From Verrucomicrobia bacterium S94 (lineage in GTDB: Bacteria; Verrucomicrobiota; Kiritimatiellia; Kiritimatiellales; Pontiellaceae), in assembly GCA_004299845.1 (NCBI GenBank), contig CP036201.1:3348001-3412000 (forward strand): a DNA stretch of 64,000 bases, given 5' to 3'. Positions 15,183-29,885 of this stretch are shown here, in pieces. Both the position numbers and the translations under genes were made by a program. Each line of letters opens with the position of its first letter. Within the stretch, counting starts at the first letter, position 1. The notes beneath the pieces were generated by a model that did no database searches, was not told where the DNA came from, and saw only the letters and a list, made by a program, of their open reading frames with translations.

Positions 15183-15209
15183 GCCCCGGATTTCCGGGGT
15201 GTTTTTTTA
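15183..15209 (+). terminator. Rho-independent terminator after the sugar porter
   Basis: GCCCCGGA-TT-TCCGGGGT stem followed directly by GTTTTTTTATTT. It ends the xylose locus and touches the stop of the convergent GT39 gene. Confidence 0.9.
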
Positions 15210-16745
15210 TTTCCGGGTTTCAATGAATGCATCCCAAAGGGTGCGGTCGATGTGCAGAGAGAGCAGGGTATCCTGGCGGAGTGAGTAGAATTCAGTCAGA
15301 AACTCTTCGGGGTCGCTTTCAAAATCCGGTCCCGCAATAACGAGGGACGGTTTGATTTCACCGGGGACTTCGGTGGCATCAGTCCAGTATCCAACATTCG
15401 GGAAACGGCGGAGATAGAAAGGTAACGGCCAGGTGGAATCCGGCGCGGCAATCACCTGTACATACATTTCTTTTCCTTCGGGACTGACTGCAGCCATTTC
15501 ATCGATCCGTCTGATCAGATTCTTGAAATCCGGTGCGGTGTGGGCGTAGACGTAGGGATTCCGGTAGTCTGCTGCATAACGGAAGACCGTGTTTTCTGCA
15601 AGGCGATAGGTTTTATATACCGGCCAGCCGAGTAACAGAAAAAGGACGATCTTCACAGAACGAACGGCACTTGGAATGGTGATTTTATCGGCACAGCAGT
15701 TGAGGATGGAAGCTACAGCGATGCCGGCCAACAGAATCCAGCCGTGCAGAAAAGAGAGAATACACCATGGGGTTTTGTACGAAATCACAGAATAGGCCAG
15801 CGTGAGCAGAATCGTATAAAACATAATGAACCGGGCGAGGCCGAGATCGATTTCCGGCGGAAGTTTTTTCCGAAGAATGGCAATACAGCCCAGAAGGCCC
15901 AGACCGAAAAACAGACCTTCGCTCCAGCGGGGTCCGCCATCGAACTGATACCGCGTCAGCATTCGAAGATAAAAATTCCAGGGGTGTACATGATCGGTAT
16001 CCATACCCGTTCCGCGCGCAAAATAGCCTTTGAAAGCCAGAACAGCATCAACAGGCCCATTCATGTTGGTCATAAAGGAGGAGAACAGCAGAAAGGCGAT
16101 AAGAAGCGCGAAGATCAGACCAAGCGCCATGTTTTTCAGGGGAAAATGGGTCGTATGCGCCACTAGAGCGCAAAGCAGAGCGGCTCCGAACATGGCGGCA
16201 TAGGCAATGATAGCCGTCTCTTTGGTGGCAAACATTAAACCGATGGAAAGCCCGGCGACAATGGCCCAGAACCGGGAGCCGATCTGAATGGAGCGCCATC
16301 CGCCGGCAATCGCCATAAAAGTAAAAAAAACGAGGAGCGATTCCTGGATATAAAACCGGCTGTAATAGGCCATACCCGGCGAGATCGCGGTAAAAAGGGC
16401 GGCGGTGCATACGGATGTTGTTCCGAGTCCGCACCGCAGCAATGGAATGGCAAGAATCAGCAGCAGACCGAATACAACCGGTACTGAACGATAGGTACCC
16501 TCAACAGAATCGGCAAAGGTTTTGACACCGGTTATCCAGCTGACCGGCAAGGTGAGATAATAGAGCGTCGGACCATGGTGATCATCGGCATCGTATTCAT
16601 ACACACCGTCTTCAAGAAGCAGACCGAAACGGTAGGCCTGGTTGGCTTCATCATGATGAAGCGGGCGTTCCGCCAACCGTGGAATACGCAGGGCCATACC
16701 GGCCAGCAGGATCAGCAGCATGACCAAGGGAAACCATTTATTCAT
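15207..16745 (-). CDS. GT39/PMT-like membrane glycosyltransferase (TIGR03663-type)
   Basis: 512 aa with about ten or more membrane helices. Right after helix 1 comes the GT-C motif HHDEANQAYRF (the acidic pair expected to act in catalysis), then YYLTLPVSW and SPGMAYYSRFYIQES. This pattern is that of the TIGR03663/Agl23-like group, which uses lipid-linked sugars on the outer membrane face. A short extracytoplasmic tail follows the last helix. Acceptor unknown. It is transcribed towards the xylose terminator as a single gene. Confidence 0.82.
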   Translation of the reverse strand: MNKWFPLVMLLILLAGMALRIPRLAERPLHHDEANQAYRFGLLLEDGVYEYDADDHHGPTLYYLTLPVSWITGVKTFADSVEGTYRSVPVVFGLLLILAIPLLRCGLGTTSVCTAALFTAISPGMAYYSRFYIQESLLVFFTFMAIAGGWRSIQIGSRFWAIVAGLSIGLMFATKETAIIAYAAMFGAALLCALVAHTTHFPLKNMALGLIFALLIAFLLFSSFMTNMNGPVDAVLAFKGYFARGTGMDTDHVHPWNFYLRMLTRYQFDGGPRWSEGLFFGLGLLGCIAILRKKLPPEIDLGLARFIMFYTILLTLAYSVISYKTPWCILSFLHGWILLAGIAVASILNCCADKITIPSAVRSVKIVLFLLLGWPVYKTYRLAENTVFRYAADYRNPYVYAHTAPDFKNLIRRIDEMAAVSPEGKEMYVQVIAAPDSTWPLPFYLRRFPNVGYWTDATEVPGEIKPSLVIAGPDFESDPEEFLTEFYSLRQDTLLSLHIDRTLWDAFIETRK

Positions 16746-16832: not shown

Positions 16833-17489
16833 TTATTTACCGAAGACTTCCACTTCGATGTAGTGATTCATATCAGATCCGGTCGATCCATTGGAATAAA
16901 GGCGAATGTACTGTCCTTTAATACCTTTAGCGTCAACCAGTTTTCCTTTGTAGGTCTCGATGTATTCTTTGCCTTTTCCAACCCCAAGGCCGGCAGAGTT
17001 GTCATGGTCGTTATTAAAGATGGTTGTAACACCTTCAACAAACTCAGCATCGTCAGAAACCTGAATGATTACATCGCGGTAAGCGCGGGCCTGTGCATGA
17101 TAGTGCCACAAAGCAACGGCATAGATTGTTTTGACTTCACCGAGATCAATCTGCACCCACTGAACCCCGGGGCCGAGTTCAACATAGGAACCGTCTGCTC
17201 CGTCTTTGTCGCCATCGGTGATGTACTCCAGTTCGCCGATGACCGGAAAGTCGTCCGAACTGGTGACTTCTTTGCCTTCAGCGATATTGACCGTGCCTTT
17301 CGGAACCATAATTTCCGGCGGAGGCGTACCCGGCTTTTCAAGATTACGGGTGCGGATCTGTTTCGGGGTACCGGCAAACAACGGTTTCGGCAGCTCGAGT
17401 TCGAGTTTTTCCATTTCTTCAGCAATAGCGGATCCGGTGAACAGAATGGCAAGTGCTGCAACAGTTACTGTTTTCAATTGGTTTTTCAT
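16833..17489 (-). CDS. Secreted discoidin (F5/8 type C)-like protein
   Basis: 218 aa including a Sec signal peptide (MKNQLKTVTVAALAILFTGSAIA, cleavage near residue 23). Residues about 65-217 look like a jelly-roll carbohydrate-binding domain: WVQIDLGEVKTIYAVALWHY, then RDVIIQVSDDAEF and a C-terminal YIEVEVFGK. It has no catalytic domain, so it is likely a periplasmic or surface sugar-binding protein. GGAGG ribosome site 8 bases before the ATG. It has its own promoter region carrying one of the three shared operators, linking it to the carbohydrate locus upstream. Confidence 0.8.
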   Translation of the reverse strand: MKNQLKTVTVAALAILFTGSAIAEEMEKLELELPKPLFAGTPKQIRTRNLEKPGTPPPEIMVPKGTVNIAEGKEVTSSDDFPVIGELEYITDGDKDGADGSYVELGPGVQWVQIDLGEVKTIYAVALWHYHAQARAYRDVIIQVSDDAEFVEGVTTIFNNDHDNSAGLGVGKGKEYIETYKGKLVDAKGIKGQYIRLYSNGSTGSDMNHYIEVEVFGK

Positions 17490-19185: not shown

Positions 19186-19199
19186 CTTATCTTTTCCAG

Positions 19200-19247
19200 T
19201 AAAAAAATACCGTCCGAAAAATCGGAATTCGATTTATCGGACGGTAT
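19200..19247 (-). terminator. Terminator after the cytochrome gene
   Basis: Minus strand: ATACCGTCCGA / TCGGACGGTAT perfect 11-base stem with an inner ATCGAATTCCGAT helix, followed by TTTTTTT. It separates the Gfo/Idh-cytochrome pair from DUF1080-apbE. Confidence 0.85.
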
Positions 19248-19261
19248 TCAGTTTCAATCCA

Positions 19262-21763
19262 TCAGCCCTTCGTTTTTTTAGCGGACAGACAGCCCATACC
19301 CGCAGCAATCAGGCTGATGACCGCAGCGGTTCGGTGTACCACAATCGCGGTGTGCTGCCCGTGTGTTCCCAGAACAGGGAACATTGCCAGCAGTACGCTG
19401 AGAATGAGCACAATACCGCTGATCAGCAACACCCAGAACCAGGGGCCGCCGCTTTTTGCACGGACAACGGCATAAACGACCAGAGCAACGGCATAAAGGG
19501 CTCCGAAGCCGGTATGGCTCAGCAGCGGGAAGCCGTTCAGCGGATACGAAAACGGCCAGCCGAACAGGAAGCCGGTCAGAGCGAGCACCAGCATGCACAC
19601 CATCAGCACGATTTTCACCGGGCGGGTGTTGATCTCTTTTTCGCCTGCAATGTTGACGAGTTTATAAACCAGCGGCAGTCCTGCCGCCAGTGCAATCAGC
19701 ACCAGCAGCAGTGAAAGATTGCTCATGATGCATTTGAACAGACTGCGCACTTTGAACGAGTTTCCGAACAGCTTATTGAAGCCGGCGCTCACGTTCTGGA
19801 ATTCATGCATCGAAACCGTTTTCGCCTTATCCGTAAGCAAAGGACCGGTGGCGGTTACAGTACCGAACAGGAAGTTTGAATCTTCTGCATGACACTCCGT
19901 GCAGGATTTAGCACCGAGAGCCTGTGCCGTACCGCGTACATCATGACCCAGTGGCCAGGAAACCGGTTCGGCGGATTCATGGTCTGAATCCACCAGTGTA
20001 TCGCCGGAAAGATCAAATTTCCGGCCGTTGGAAATATAGGATGCACCATTGCCGAGTTTTTTCAGCATTTTCACAACCTGCTCTTCGTTGAATGCTTTAT
20101 CGGTACCGACGATATCGGTCACTGCTTTTTCCACAAACGGATCAACCAGTTTTTTACCGTCTTTGGTGTACCAGCCGTCAACGAGTGTCGTGTTGGTGCC
20201 CACCAGCCAGCCATCCTGAACTTCAAACAGTTTTCCCTTTGAAGCCAGAATAATCTCGGTCGGCTCGAAGGCCTTCATGATTCCGAGAATCCGTTCTTCC
20301 GCATCGAAATCAAGCTGCTCTGCATTGACGTCAAATTCCGGAATGGTGGATACGATATTACTCGGTGTTTTCCAGGCCCAGGTAACCGGCAGATCGGTCT
20401 GGCCGATCAGATCCAGTCCGCCATCGGCATTCTGCACATAGGCATTGCCGGCGGCAATATAGACCGGTTCGCCGATCGGGAACGGCGTGGCATCATCAAT
20501 ACTGCCCCAGATGGCGAGTGTTGAAGCCACCTGCTGAGCGGTATCGAGAATGCCTTCAGCGGCTTCAGCAACCACCTCTTCGGGAAGCGGATTACCTTCG
20601 GCATCGGCCCAGAAGGCCGGCCACATCATCCGGCGGGGTTCAATCCTGCCTTCATCGTTCCGGACATAGACCGGCTCAACAATGAATGGCGATTCGGTGT
20701 ACCATTGTGCACGGCCGTAAATTCCAAGCTTGTTCGCACGTGATGTACGAATCAGCTGAGGTTCTTCCCCCGGTTCCAGACCGGAATGGCAGGCGGTGCA
20801 GGTCAGTTCATCGAAGTGCACCGGCGGAAGCCCTTTATGATGGGCAACCGGGGCGCCGGCCTGACCGGCTATCAGCCCGTCTTCCGTATGACAGGCCGCA
20901 CAGCTCATGGTTTCCGTAGTACCGCGCAGCATTTGATGATCTTCACCGTTGCGGTGGCAGTCCACACACGACAGTCCGGCCGCCGCATGGACATCACCGG
21001 GAACATCCATACGGGCTGCCGTTACAGGATGCGTAGAGTGGCACTGTACACAGTTACGGTCCTGCGGTCGTCCGATGTCGAACCACATCCGATGCTTGGA
21101 ATCGAACAGGGTTTCGTCAAAATCAGCGGAAGGCGGAACCCGGTAGACTTTATCGTCCGGACTGCCGCCCATATACATATTCCACCATTCCGGCATGCGC
21201 GACGCCATACCGCTCACCTCGGCCATACCGGATGCTGCAGTGGAAGCCCAGCGGAAGTTTTCGCGGGCAATCTGTTTTGCCCACTCGGTCATATCCTGAC
21301 GGTGGGAGTTATTATGACATGCCAGACAGTTCATTTCCAGCCCGCCGGAAATTTCCCAGCGTGCATCCGGATCGGCCAGCTTATCTTCCGGATCACTGAT
21401 GGACCCGCCGGGAAGGTGACTGCCGAACTGTTTGGTGAATTCCCAGGCCGAAAGGCTCATGCGTTCAGCCGGAACCTGAACCCCGATGGTTTCATCGACC
21501 ACAATCCAGGGTTCTGTTGCCCGACCCTGGCCGGCACCCTTAAAGTGCGATCCGCCATGAATTTTCTCATAGTCATGGCACGCACCGCACGTCATTTTCG
21601 ACGAAAACGGCAGGTTTTCCGGCAGGGAGGTGTTGATGGGCTGACCATCTTCCGAAAAAAGCGGAATGCGATGAACAGGCGTCGTTCTGCTTCCATCAAA
21701 ATGATTTGCGAAAACAGATACCGCTGTTCCCAGCAGGGATAGTATCAGATATTTTGTTTTCAC
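19262..21763 (-). CDS. Seven-heme membrane c-type cytochrome with C-terminal helical domain
   Basis: 833 aa, GTG start, signal peptide (about residues 1-19). Seven CXXCH heme sites lie at residues 59, 146, 238, 266, 288, 322 and 621. The stretch 340-615 has none. The last 150 residues form about five membrane helices containing several His (near 750, 801, 804, 810) that could hold a b-type heme. It looks like a periplasmic multiheme reductase/oxidase fused to a quinone-facing membrane domain. The GTG overlaps the Gfo/Idh stop (GTGA), so the two are made together and may exchange electrons. Confidence 0.85.
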   Translation of the reverse strand: MKTKYLILSLLGTAVSVFANHFDGSRTTPVHRIPLFSEDGQPINTSLPENLPFSSKMTCGACHDYEKIHGGSHFKGAGQGRATEPWIVVDETIGVQVPAERMSLSAWEFTKQFGSHLPGGSISDPEDKLADPDARWEISGGLEMNCLACHNNSHRQDMTEWAKQIARENFRWASTAASGMAEVSGMASRMPEWWNMYMGGSPDDKVYRVPPSADFDETLFDSKHRMWFDIGRPQDRNCVQCHSTHPVTAARMDVPGDVHAAAGLSCVDCHRNGEDHQMLRGTTETMSCAACHTEDGLIAGQAGAPVAHHKGLPPVHFDELTCTACHSGLEPGEEPQLIRTSRANKLGIYGRAQWYTESPFIVEPVYVRNDEGRIEPRRMMWPAFWADAEGNPLPEEVVAEAAEGILDTAQQVASTLAIWGSIDDATPFPIGEPVYIAAGNAYVQNADGGLDLIGQTDLPVTWAWKTPSNIVSTIPEFDVNAEQLDFDAEERILGIMKAFEPTEIILASKGKLFEVQDGWLVGTNTTLVDGWYTKDGKKLVDPFVEKAVTDIVGTDKAFNEEQVVKMLKKLGNGASYISNGRKFDLSGDTLVDSDHESAEPVSWPLGHDVRGTAQALGAKSCTECHAEDSNFLFGTVTATGPLLTDKAKTVSMHEFQNVSAGFNKLFGNSFKVRSLFKCIMSNLSLLLVLIALAAGLPLVYKLVNIAGEKEINTRPVKIVLMVCMLVLALTGFLFGWPFSYPLNGFPLLSHTGFGALYAVALVVYAVVRAKSGGPWFWVLLISGIVLILSVLLAMFPVLGTHGQHTAIVVHRTAAVISLIAAGMGCLSAKKTKG

Positions 21764-23100
21764 ACGTGGAAGTCCGATTTCTTGAATTCAATTTTCTGGC
21801 TGGTTGCAACAGCCTGGTTTACCGACAGAACAGCAACTGCAGTTTCGTATCCTTTTTCAGCGGGACAGTTCAGCGGGGTTCCGTAGCGGATGGCATTGAA
21901 AAAGTTTTCCAGATGCGGCTGGTGGGCCGGTTTTGAAAGGTCAATCGGCAGCGGCCATCCGGTGGCGGCTTCCGTAACACGGACATCGACCGCTTTATTC
22001 TTTGTGGCTGTTTTCTTAATGGCCGTCGGTTTGGCTTTGATCAGCCCTTTGGCCGCCAGCTCTTCCCACTGGGATTCCGGAGCGTGTGCTTCACGGAAAA
22101 CCGCATTGCCCTGAGCCGGGACTTCCGCAATTTCAAGATAGCCGTTGGTTCCGCGGAATGCCTCGGAGAATCCGCCGCGCCCCGTGGTCGTCTGCGTTTC
22201 ATAAAAAGCACGGGCCGTGCCGGTAGGTGTGTCAAATTCATAAATGGCCATAACATTGTCATACCATTCCCGGTGGGCATAGAAATCGTTGCCACCGGAG
22301 GCAATGACGGATTTAGCGTTGGTTTCCCAGACCCATTCAAAAATATCAATCTGGTGTGAACCCAGGTCGACAATCGGACCGCCGCCGTATTTTTTGTACC
22401 AGCGCCAGTTACGGAACTCCATCATGGAGTTATAGCCATACTGATCCAGCACTTCCGCCGGAACCGGGTATTTGGCCGGGAAGCCGATATCATCCGCTTT
22501 GGCACGGTTCCACTGTGCGGTTGCCGTGGTCACCTGACCCAGCAGTTGTTGTTCGTGAATCAGTAGATCAATGGCATGGAGATAACGCGGATTGGAACGG
22601 CGCTGGTGACCGATCTGCAGCAGTTTACCGGTGGCTCGCTGGGTTTTCACCATTGTGGCTGCTTTTTCCAGCGAGTTGGACATTTCCTTTTCGCAGTAAA
22701 CATGGAGGCCTGCTTCCATGCACGCATTGGCATGTTCGGCATGCATCCAGTCCGGGGAGGCAACCACGACGGCATCAAGCTCATCTTTGTGGTTCGCCAG
22801 CATTTCTTTGTAGTCCACATAGCCTTTGGGCATTTCACGCTGCTGACTGTAAATATAGCGTGTTCCATAGCGCAGATTGTATTTTTCCCAGATATCACAT
22901 ACCGCTTTAATACGGATGCCTGGAATACGAACGCAGGACTGCATCAGAATCTGGCCCTGTGCGCCGGCACCGATAAAGGCGATGTTCAGCTGATCCGGAT
23001 TCTTCCGGGCTGAAAGCTCGGCATTTTCCACCGCACGCGCCTTCAGCGACGCCAGAACGGTTCCGGCCGCAGCCGTTTGCATAAATTGAGTTCTATTCAT
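21760..23100 (-). CDS. Exported Gfo/Idh/MocA-family oxidoreductase, coupled to the cytochrome
   Basis: 446 aa. A Tat-like leader with a degenerate motif (MNRTQFMQTAAAGTVLAS; only one Arg) precedes a Rossmann domain (IAFIGAGAQGQ at about 39-49). The usual EKP substrate/nucleotide motif is CEKEMS here, with Pro replaced by Glu. A later GGGPIVDLGSHQIDIFEW region supplies the expected His. Family members oxidise sugars or cyclitols with a bound NAD(P). First gene of an operon with the multiheme cytochrome; operator B lies about 160-190 bases upstream. Confidence 0.88.
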   Translation of the reverse strand: MNRTQFMQTAAAGTVLASLKARAVENAELSARKNPDQLNIAFIGAGAQGQILMQSCVRIPGIRIKAVCDIWEKYNLRYGTRYIYSQQREMPKGYVDYKEMLANHKDELDAVVVASPDWMHAEHANACMEAGLHVYCEKEMSNSLEKAATMVKTQRATGKLLQIGHQRRSNPRYLHAIDLLIHEQQLLGQVTTATAQWNRAKADDIGFPAKYPVPAEVLDQYGYNSMMEFRNWRWYKKYGGGPIVDLGSHQIDIFEWVWETNAKSVIASGGNDFYAHREWYDNVMAIYEFDTPTGTARAFYETQTTTGRGGFSEAFRGTNGYLEIAEVPAQGNAVFREAHAPESQWEELAAKGLIKAKPTAIKKTATKNKAVDVRVTEAATGWPLPIDLSKPAHQPHLENFFNAIRYGTPLNCPAEKGYETAVAVLSVNQAVATSQKIEFKKSDFHV

Positions 23101-23321: not shown

Positions 23322-23348
23322 CAAAAAAGCGCCCCGGATGGAGCGCTT
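23322..23348 (-). terminator. Terminator of the MFS...HEAT operon
   Basis: Minus strand: AAGCGCTCC-ATCC-GGGGCGCTT followed by TTTTGTTTTTT, 27 bases beyond the stop of the HEAT-repeat gene. It insulates the Gfo/Idh-cytochrome promoter from the upstream operon. Confidence 0.88.
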
Positions 23349-23374
23349 CTCTTCGATCGGCAGCAGAATACGGT

Positions 23375-26256: not shown

Positions 26257-27543
26257 TTAAAGAATCCAGGGTTCGCGAAACGACCGGGTAAGCAGGCCGT
26301 TGGCTACCGAATCGTTCGTGATGATCTCGTTTTCCGGATCCCACTTAAGAGTGCGACCGGTGTAGATCGCGAGTTCTCCAAGCAGTCCGGCACTGATGGA
26401 GCGGTGTCCGGTTTCGGCCGGGCAGATGCATGGTCGGCGGCTTTTCACGCAGTCGATAAAGTTCCGGTGATGATCCCGGCTTTCATAAAGCCGGATTCCG
26501 TTGCTGGGAATCGGATCTTTCAGAATGCCGGGTTTGCTGGCTTCGATTTTTTCGCGGGTGACGAGTATTTCGCCCTCTTCGCCCACAAAACGGGCGCCGG
26601 GACCGTATTTACTGGTGACTTTGATCAAAGAGCCGTCGGCATATTTCAGATCGAAATCAAAAGAGGTGATGACATTGAACAGATCGCTGTCTGCAAAGCC
26701 TCCGGTTCCGCTGATTTCCACCGGGCCGGTTTCATCGAGCCCGAGTGCCCAGTGGCAGATATCAATATTGTGTCCGGCCCAGTCGGTAATCTGTCCGCCC
26801 GAAAAATCGCGCAGCCAGCGCCAGTTCCAGTGCATGGAACCGCCACGGCCCAGATCACGGTGGGGTTGCATCGGGGCTGGTCCCAGCCACATCTCATAGT
26901 CCAGTTCCTTCGGAACCGGAACCGTTTTTGCGGAACCGCCGCCATAACCGCCCGGCAGGCGGGCTTCAGCAAACTTTATTTTTCCCAGCCTTCCGTTGCG
27001 CACCAGTTCGCAGGCCATCCGGAACCGTCCGTCAGAGCGCTGCTGTGAACCGGTCTGCCAGATTACCCCGTTGCGTTCAACGGCTTCGACAATGGCACGT
27101 CCCTCCGGAATGGTACGGGCGAGCGGTTTCTGGCCGTAGATATCTTTTCCGGCATTGGCGGCCGCCACGCAGATTATGCCGTGCCAATGGTCGGGCAGGG
27201 CATGGAAAACCGCATCGATGTCATCGCGGGCGAGCAGTTCGCGGAAGTCATTGTATTCAGTGCAGTCGGTGTTTCCGTATTTTGAATCGATGGTTCGTTT
27301 GGCATTGGCGCGATGGCGGGAATCCACATCGCACACTGCCAGCAGGCGGGTATCCGGCTGGTTGAGCAGTCCTTTGAGGTTGCCCATGCCCATCGAGCCG
27401 GTACCGATACCGCCGATGGTGATTTTATTGCTGGGAGCTGTTGCGCCCAATACAGTAGAAGGGACAATAGCCGGGAATCCGGCCGCCGCTCCGGCAAGGG
27501 CTGAGGTTTTCAGCAGGTTACGTCTGGAAAGTTTCGATGTCAT
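26257..27543 (-). CDS. Tat-exported Gfo/Idh/MocA oxidoreductase
   Basis: 428 aa from the ATG at 27543 (an ATG at 27555 adds four residues). A canonical twin-arginine leader, SRRNLLKTSALAGAAAG, comes first. The Rossmann motif is IGGIGTGSMGMGN; the active-site Lys motif reads GQKPLAR (EKP with Glu replaced by Gln); an ITDWAGHNIDICHWAL stretch supplies Asp/His. Tat export implies folding with bound NAD(P), as in Zymomonas glucose-fructose oxidoreductase. The substrate is probably a glycoside. It sits between the epimerase and ThuA genes. Confidence 0.92.
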   Translation of the reverse strand: MTSKLSRRNLLKTSALAGAAAGFPAIVPSTVLGATAPSNKITIGGIGTGSMGMGNLKGLLNQPDTRLLAVCDVDSRHRANAKRTIDSKYGNTDCTEYNDFRELLARDDIDAVFHALPDHWHGIICVAAANAGKDIYGQKPLARTIPEGRAIVEAVERNGVIWQTGSQQRSDGRFRMACELVRNGRLGKIKFAEARLPGGYGGGSAKTVPVPKELDYEMWLGPAPMQPHRDLGRGGSMHWNWRWLRDFSGGQITDWAGHNIDICHWALGLDETGPVEISGTGGFADSDLFNVITSFDFDLKYADGSLIKVTSKYGPGARFVGEEGEILVTREKIEASKPGILKDPIPSNGIRLYESRDHHRNFIDCVKSRRPCICPAETGHRSISAGLLGELAIYTGRTLKWDPENEIITNDSVANGLLTRSFREPWIL

Positions 27544-27624
27544 AGCAATTCCCATTGTTCCGAAAATCAGAGCCCGCCACGGCGGAACCGGGCGGGCGTT
27601 TTCATGAACGATTATCGTTCGAAC

Positions 27625-28724: not shown

Positions 28725-29885
28725 TTAAAGTTTCGTCCATTCGGCATTGTTGTTGGAACTTTCCACAACCGCCTTGATAAATTTCATACCGATAACGCCT
28801 TCTTTCACGCCTGGGAAATCTTTTTCCAGGTCGGTGGGTTTGCGTTTGGCTTCCTTTGCCAGAATGGTGTCGGCAAAGTTGCAGTAGTTATTCGCAAAGG
28901 CTTCGAGGAAGGCTTCCGGATGACCGAAGGGCAGGCGTGTTGCGCGGCCGGCAGCTTCAGAACGGGCTCCGACATAGTCATTACCGCGTTTCCAGATCTG
29001 CGTAGGCTCTCCGAGTTTGTCGACATAGAGCCAGTTCGGATGTTCCTGATGCCATTCCAGCGAGCCGTCTTCTCCGTGAATCCAGATGGCAAGGTTGTTT
29101 TCCTGTCCGATGGATACCTGAGATGCATGCAGCAGACCTTTGGCCCCTTTGGAGAAGCGCAGCAGGCAGTTGCCGTCGTCGTCGAGGCGGCGGCCTTTAA
29201 CAAAGGTGGTCAGGTCGGCAGCCACTTCGCGGATGGTCAGCCCGGTGATGTATTCCGCCAGATTTGCGGCATGTGTTCCGATGTCGCCGATGCAGCCGGC
29301 AATCCCGGATTTTTTCGGATCGGTGCGCCAGGAGGCCTGCTGATTGCCTTCTTTTTCGGTGGCGCGCGCCAGCCAGCCCTGCGGATACTGTACGATGACT
29401 TTGCGGACTTTTCCGATGTCGCCGTCTTTCACCATGTCTTTGGCCAGTTTGACCATCGGGTAGGCGGTGTAGTTATGCATCAGGCCGAAGACCTTTTTCG
29501 ATTTCTGGACAATGGTTTTGAGCTCTTCCGCTTCTTCCACGGTAAGGGTCATCGGTTTTTCGCACATAACGTTAAAACCTGCTTCCAGAAACGCTTTGGC
29601 GATCGGGAAATGGGTGTGGTTCGGGGTGCAGACGGAAACAAAATCGATCCGTTCATCGGCGGGCAGGGCCAGTTCGCCTTCAATCATCGACTGGACGTCA
29701 TTGTAGGTACGGCTTTTATCGATGCAGAGTTCTTGGCCCATTGCCCGCGATTTTTTCGGATCGATGTCAAAGGCACCGGCCACGATGTCGATTTTACCGT
29801 CGAGGCGCGCGGCTTTTCGGTGTACGTCGCCGATGAAAGCGCCGGGGCCTCCGCCGACCATTCCCATTTTGAGTTTTCTATCCAT
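28725..29885 (-). CDS. Cytoplasmic Gfo/Idh/MocA oxidoreductase
   Basis: 386 aa without signal peptide. Rossmann motif MVGGGPGAFIGDVHRKAA with a bound-nucleotide Gly cluster; FVSVCTPNHTHFP; the full canonical MCEKPMTL motif; and CIGDIGTHAANLAEY with Asp and His for catalysis. NAD(P)-dependent oxidation or reduction of a sugar or cyclitol after import is the likely role. It follows the MFS gene after 26 bases and has a strong AGGAGGT ribosome site. Of the three Gfo/Idh enzymes in the locus it is the only one with an intact EKP and no leader. Confidence 0.92.
   Translation of the reverse strand: MDRKLKMGMVGGGPGAFIGDVHRKAARLDGKIDIVAGAFDIDPKKSRAMGQELCIDKSRTYNDVQSMIEGELALPADERIDFVSVCTPNHTHFPIAKAFLEAGFNVMCEKPMTLTVEEAEELKTIVQKSKKVFGLMHNYTAYPMVKLAKDMVKDGDIGKVRKVIVQYPQGWLARATEKEGNQQASWRTDPKKSGIAGCIGDIGTHAANLAEYITGLTIREVAADLTTFVKGRRLDDDGNCLLRFSKGAKGLLHASQVSIGQENNLAIWIHGEDGSLEWHQEHPNWLYVDKLGEPTQIWKRGNDYVGARSEAAGRATRLPFGHPEAFLEAFANNYCNFADTILAKEAKRKPTDLEKDFPGVKEGVIGMKFIKAVVESSNNNAEWTKL

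Follow-up and report, generated by a model that had tools for sequence, protein, structure and literature searches.

The locus considered here lies in a window of 64,000 nucleotides (nt) from Verrucomicrobia bacterium S94 (contig CP036201.1, positions 3,348,001 to 3,412,000; the genome is a single contig of 4.1 Mb) and holds two genes, GFO1 and CYT, that may together encode an exported sugar dehydrogenase passing its electrons to quinone. GFO1 (21760-23100) encodes a Gfo/Idh/MocA oxidoreductase of 446 amino acids (aa), a probable sugar dehydrogenase dependent on nicotinamide adenine dinucleotide (NAD) and acting at C3, and CYT (19262-21763) starts with GTG and encodes an 833-aa membrane cytochrome with seven CXXCH motifs and five transmembrane (TM) helices; these and all other window features given below are on the minus strand. 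The stop of the former and the start of the latter overlap by 4 nt (GTGA, 21760-21763), as read from the open reading frames (ORFs) and their translations. A terminator-like hairpin with a U-run (fold z = -5.8) lies 3' of CYT at 19186-19261, and a second, likewise with a U-run, lies 3' of an upstream HEAT-repeat gene at 23323-23352; GFO1 and CYT are therefore probably under their own promoter and, being bracketed by the two hairpins, appear to form a bicistronic unit. The DUF1080, ApbE, F5/8C and GT39/Agl23 genes are placed beyond the hairpin that ends CYT. The coordinates, strand, ORFs and GTGA overlap given in an original prediction for this DNA were all found to be correct when frames and translations were checked.

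CYT was found in 17 of 58 genomes, belonging to the same genus (the window's own genome included) or to one other searched genus of its family; the same-genus genomes include Pontiella sulfatireligans and P. desulfatans. GFO1 lies directly upstream of CYT in every locus of the genus with a readable upstream side, and the 4-nt overlap recurs in 8 of 13 genus loci. A CYT-profile scan of 84,980 species genomes returned 38 CYT loci spanning Kiritimatiellae, Lentisphaeria, Aminicenantes, Acidobacteriota, Planctomycetota and Sumerlaeota. Among 26 of the loci (L055-L080), GFO1 was upstream of CYT in 21 of the 23 that are readable on that side, the exceptions being L077 and L078; L056, L057 and L080 were excluded from the count as the sequence ends there. 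Across 388 genomes of the phylum, CYT was present in 19, GFO1 (at E <= 1e-100) in 68 and both in 18; GFO1 thus accompanies CYT in 18/19 genomes, its base rate being 68/388 (Fisher p = 5e-14, relatedness being ignored). A tree of 78 GFO1s groups the CYT label, which requires 3 changes as against 25.6 in shuffles; the four GFO1s labelled 'other' but nested in the CYT group (L123, L142, L143 and L144) belong to genomes whose CYT is on a different contig. Adjacency had been set beforehand as the point on which the pairing could fall, and the linkage proved to be conserved in at least six phylum-level groups. The recurrence of GFO1-CYT across phyla and the co-occurrence of the two genes exceed chance, and a functional link between them is close to certain.

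GFO1 matches PF01408, PF22725 and PF02894, all above cut-off, and Pfam and fold agree on the N-terminal Rossmann and C-terminal alpha/beta domains of the Gfo/Idh/MocA family; its AlphaFold model is a confident Gfo/Idh fold, with a predicted local distance difference test (pLDDT) value of 83.5. The best fold match in the PDB is the P2B11 glucuronide-3-dehydrogenase (8tdi, E 4.5e-22), with WlbA, GenD2, KanD2 and DgpA within the top 50, and several of these fold relatives act on sugar C3. Such action is described for DgpA (PMC12724307). The GxGxxG dinucleotide-binding motif (residues 44-49, 22954-22971) was located by translation and alignment, and the catalytic Lys, Asp and His are kept, K138, D245 and H249 being invariant in the alignment; the proline of the EKP motif is substituted, EKP being replaced by EKEMSN in the CYT-linked GFO1 group. 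The position of D69, following the second strand, would suit NAD as the preferred cofactor by comparison with known Rossmann folds. Fold and neighbourhood make GFO1 a probable sugar 3-dehydrogenase, one outside the BT_2158 equivalog. Its leader (23008-23100) had been described as Tat-like (twin-arginine translocation), and an alignment of 15 Pontiellaceae GFO1s upholds this in part: all 15 have R3, F6 and the A-x-A site, and the second arginine of the S/T-R-R-x-F motif occurs in none, which leaves a degenerate leader of the form R3-x-x-F6. GFO1s outside Pontiellaceae carry the canonical leader SRRxFLK.

The seven CXXCH motifs of CYT start at residues 59, 146, 238, 266, 288, 322 and 621, hydropathy gives an N-terminal signal and five segments starting at residue 672, and the structure model places helices at 660-708, 714-733, 744-768, 774-793 and 796-832, so that the cytochrome with seven hemes and five helices of the original prediction is borne out by motif scan, hydropathy and model alike. 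These motifs, the signal peptide and an above-cut-off match to PF14537 make it a multiheme c-type cytochrome. Hemes 1-6 (residues 59-326, 20786-21589) form a cytochrome c3/c7-like stretch recognised above cut-off by both PF14537 and PF14522. Between hemes 6 and 7 stands a beta-rich domain (about residues 345-606, 19946-20731), modelled mostly at pLDDT 80-95 and conserved across phyla with a near-invariant RMMWPAFW motif; it has no known Pfam domain and no fold match in the PDB, and it might serve as a site for a substrate or a partner. Heme 7 (residues 621-625, 19889-19903), placed by motif scan, sits beside the membrane domain (residues 672-832, 19268-19750), in which conservation marks H750 and H810 as candidate heme b ligands, H750 being kept in 16 and H810 in all 19 of the aligned fused or split membrane forms. 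The model of CYT as a whole, built without hemes (pLDDT 74), has no PDB fold match at E <= 0.001, and its sequence relatives in the PDB are the heme stretches of NrfA and c3 only.

The membrane domain is fused to the heme part in Kiritimatiellae and encoded by a separate gene of 180-240 aa in Aminicenantes, Acidobacteriota and others. These separate subunits match PF01292 (cytochrome b561/Ni-hydrogenase type), weakly in most; those of L071 (Sumerlaeota) and L074 (Sedimentisphaerales) reach 41.3 and 56.0 bits against a cut-off of 30.1 and are closest to formate dehydrogenase gamma. The formate-dehydrogenase-gamma/PF01292 family connects periplasmic dehydrogenases with menaquinone, and a membrane part that is interchangeably fused, split or a cytochrome b of the formate-dehydrogenase-gamma type points to quinone as the partner of CYT.

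In about 38 loci of the phylum without CYT (36, with L114 and L117 added by eye), a four-helix DoxX/MauE-like protein is found directly upstream of GFO1. DoxX is named after a subunit of thiosulfate:quinone oxidoreductase, and DoxX/DoxD, the small-subunit family of that enzyme, is the nearest known counterpart of this four-TM protein; this alternative, too, points to quinone. No locus among those examined has both CYT and the DoxX-like partner beside GFO1, and the DoxX form also occurs inside the genus, at L161 of genome G004, which lacks CYT. As a rule, both the CYT and the DoxX loci contain F58C (a protein with an F5/8 type C domain), ApbE and a GT39/Agl23-like protein; the constant core is therefore GFO1-F58C-GT39-ApbE, with an exchangeable membrane partner. 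Such exchange is what would be expected if the partner takes electrons from GFO1 or gives them to it. The DoxX-GFO1 pair is itself an unnamed conserved pair, examples within L112-L168 being L113:7179-9126, L116:7088-9068 and L161. A gene for an electron transfer flavoprotein (ETF)-quinone oxidoreductase stands directly upstream of GFO1 in two Kiritimatiellae loci (L127:6524-8149 and L123:7891-9495, confirmed by Pfam), and L169 probably has the same arrangement, as judged by ORF length and position only.

It is on balance probable that GFO1 and CYT constitute an exported sugar dehydrogenase : quinone oxidoreductase, in which sugar electrons would reach quinone via CYT. GFO1, folded with its NAD, would probably be exported by Tat and would oxidise a glycoside hydroxyl, most likely at C3; the electrons would then enter the periplasmic hemes of CYT, whose membrane domain would hand them to menaquinone. 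From there they would go on to a quinol oxidase, for example the cytochrome bd of the genome, and the 3-keto product may be cleaved by nearby DUF1080/ThuA-type enzymes. ApbE may supply a covalent flavin as converter between NADH and hemes; such a go-between makes sense, since NADH gives a two-electron hydride and hemes take electrons one by one. Family-by-family checks for respiratory genes show that the window genome encodes TatC, CcsA-type heme assembly, a second ApbE and a cytochrome bd quinol oxidase, and the proposed route therefore has an outlet. The original prediction, in which an exported sugar dehydrogenase supplies the quinone pool with electrons by way of the cytochrome, is thus partly borne out by the linkage in at least six phylum-level groups, the split or FdnI-type cytochrome b and the replacement by DoxX; the direction of electron flow, the substrate, export in this genus, the NADH-to-heme step and the role of flavin are what we infer beyond these. 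That the NADH bound to GFO1 is re-oxidised in place is a slightly less than even prospect. The wider scheme is put forward with the same reserve: a periplasmic, NAD-carrying Gfo/Idh enzyme would be re-oxidised by a membrane multiheme cytochrome, or elsewhere by a DoxX-like quinone protein, perhaps via an ApbE flavin at a non-canonical site, and would so feed the quinone pool directly, as a new type of respiratory dehydrogenase.

Several results weigh against this proposal. The loss of the second Tat arginine across Pontiellaceae makes the export of GFO1 uncertain there. Against the equivalog of the BT_2158 glycoside 3-dehydrogenase (NF058561), GFO1 scores 81 bits where the cut-off is 750, and the match covers its N-terminal half only. 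The TM domain of the window CYT reaches no Pfam cut-off, and the DoxX-like proteins only just pass the Pfam DoxX cut-off of 23.6, at 23.9 and 23.7. The strict flavinylation motif D-x-x-[ST]-G-A-[ST] is absent from the GFO1, CYT, F58C, GT39, ApbE, DoxX and TM families; the module proteins thus show no canonical ApbE target motif, and no flavin acceptor was identified.

The rival account that survives best, although it is still unlikely, is a closed redox cycle, in which GFO1 would use a second sugar, or the keto product, to recycle its bound NAD, with CYT serving another enzyme of the pathway and being merely co-regulated. Established examples, among them glucose-fructose oxidoreductase, show that Gfo/Idh enzymes can hold their cofactor tightly and recycle it on a second substrate, with 1ofg and 5a02 among the PDB relatives; moreover, no flavin or electron exit site was identified in GFO1, and four genomes carry the two genes on separate contigs. 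Nevertheless, most loci have no other redox enzyme between the pair or directly beside it, the two genes of the window are translationally overlapped in what appears to be their own bicistronic unit, and the DoxX-like alternative is likewise attached to GFO1 itself. It is rather improbable that GFO1 is cytoplasmic in this genus, the pair being a relic and CYT being driven by another exported enzyme such as GFO2: the twin arginine is missing in 15/15 Pontiellaceae GFO1s, whereas the neighbouring GFO2 keeps SRRNLLK, yet R3, F6 and the A-x-A site persist, most loci retain the overlap with CYT, and GFO1 sequences within the genus remain 71-96% identical to the window copy. With textbook potentials of about -320 mV for NAD and about -75 mV for menaquinol, the reduction of NAD by menaquinol would be uphill. 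A reverse flow from quinol through CYT, keeping the cofactor of GFO1 reduced so that the enzyme acts as a periplasmic keto-sugar reductase, is for this reason very improbable, and the 3-keto-sugar hydrolase family gene of the cluster also needs its substrate oxidised first, even though Gfo/Idh reactions are reversible, the fold matches include a reductase (2glx, 1,5-anhydrofructose reductase) and cytochromes of the CbcL/MtrH/MtoC type are thought to be bidirectional (PMC6295460).

Downstream of CYT, the window encodes an exported protein of the 3-keto-disaccharide hydrolase family (DUF1080, PF06439; 18382-19185) and three recurrent members of the module, namely ApbE (FAD:protein FMN transferase family, flavin adenine dinucleotide to flavin mononucleotide; PF02424; 17575-18375), the exported 218-aa F58C (assigned by Pfam; 16833-17489) and the GT39/Agl23-type membrane glycosyltransferase (15207-16745), which scores 173 bits to TIGR03663 against a cut-off of 126. 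On the other side stands a neighbouring putative keto-sugar gene set with a ThuA family protein (PF06283; 25360-26241), the second Gfo/Idh enzyme GFO2 (26257-27555; PF01408, with the canonical Tat signal SRRNLLK matched above cut-off by PF10518), a xylose-isomerase-like TIM barrel protein (AP_endonuc_2, PF01261; 27625-28617) and a third Gfo/Idh, GFO3, in which no leader was seen (28725-29885). The DUF1080, ThuA and isomerase families are thus all present in the window, and DUF1080 is directly beside CYT in only some loci of the genus.

The clustered ApbE scores 139.6 bits to PF02424 and conserves the metal-site motif DALSTAF together with D226, T230 and H199. Since no signal peptide was seen on it, any action of this ApbE would have to be cytoplasmic, with GFO1 still awaiting Tat export as one possible target. 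F58C was considered as a flavin carrier and rejected, its only similar stretch (SNGSTGSD) being an ordinary domain end. The protein is mostly 52-64% identical to the window copy across phyla (L055-L080 included) and is usually encoded near GFO1, a conservation unusually high for a binding domain; its gene is tandemly duplicated in one Pontiella-like genome (L036:5864-7203). TIGR03663, the 'flippase activity-associated protein Agl23' family, accompanies the module in many phyla, which puts a glycosyltransferase in a redox cluster. In three Pontiella genomes a PDDEXK_3 protein lies between CYT and ApbE (L022:8325-9137, L027:11552-12355 and L031:1658-2455); the extra ORFs found at this place in Pontiella were considered as DUF1080 copies and rejected, being PDDEXK_3 or TIM-barrel proteins.

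Among known systems, the BT2158, P2B11 and DgpA glycoside 3-dehydrogenases share the Gfo/Idh fold, and the GFO1 cluster likewise has a DUF1080-type neighbour; GFO1 differs from this group in having EKEMSN for the usual EKP and a dedicated membrane cytochrome, and we know of no cytochrome beside BT2158. The FAD-dependent glucoside 3-dehydrogenase of the GMC type (Agrobacterium, and the lactose dehydrogenase type of Caulobacter), which oxidises sugar C3 outside the cytoplasm and passes the electrons to a cytochrome c, is similar to the working proposed here; however, its catalytic subunit is unrelated, GFO1 being an NAD-type Rossmann enzyme whose partner is a seven-heme membrane cytochrome. The layout of CYT, with a multiheme N-terminal half and a quinone-type C-terminal membrane half, is that of CbcL/MtrH/MtoC, CbcL having nine hemes, six helices and a HydC/FdnI-like membrane part (PMC6295460). 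In contrast to the six-helix diheme b architecture of that group, the window CYT has five helices, one well-conserved His pair, the central RMMWPAFW domain and a sugar dehydrogenase partner rather than a role in extracellular electron transfer, and it falls below every NCBIfam cut-off. ApbE-dependent extracytosolic flavin electron transfer systems (PMC8238504, PMC11334425) also cluster ApbE with exported redox proteins and a membrane cytochrome, but the GFO1 module has no FMN-binding domain or canonical motif and its ApbE no signal peptide; the terms 'Gfo', 'Planctomycet' and 'Verrucomicrob' are absent from the main texts of both papers. By analogy, GFO1-CYT would work like the periplasmic sugar dehydrogenases dependent on flavin or pyrroloquinoline quinone (PQQ), without being a member of them.

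No description of the GFO1-CYT pairing was found in the open literature, which is weak evidence of novelty as subscription journals were outside its scope. To our knowledge, the periplasmic sugar dehydrogenases that feed respiration use FAD or PQQ. The conservation of the pair suggests an extracytoplasmic oxidation of sugars in these bacteria, with the electrons sent on to the respiratory chain. If true, this would break the rule that extracytoplasmic NAD-dependent chemistry must close its own redox cycle, and the exchange of CYT for DoxX would represent two unrelated wirings of one enzyme, which makes the idea directly testable. It would also name the electron destination of redox-assisted (3-keto) glycan breakdown in these bacteria, and Kiritimatiellota, Aminicenantes, Acidobacteriota and related sugar degraders would gain energy from the very first oxidation of a glycan.

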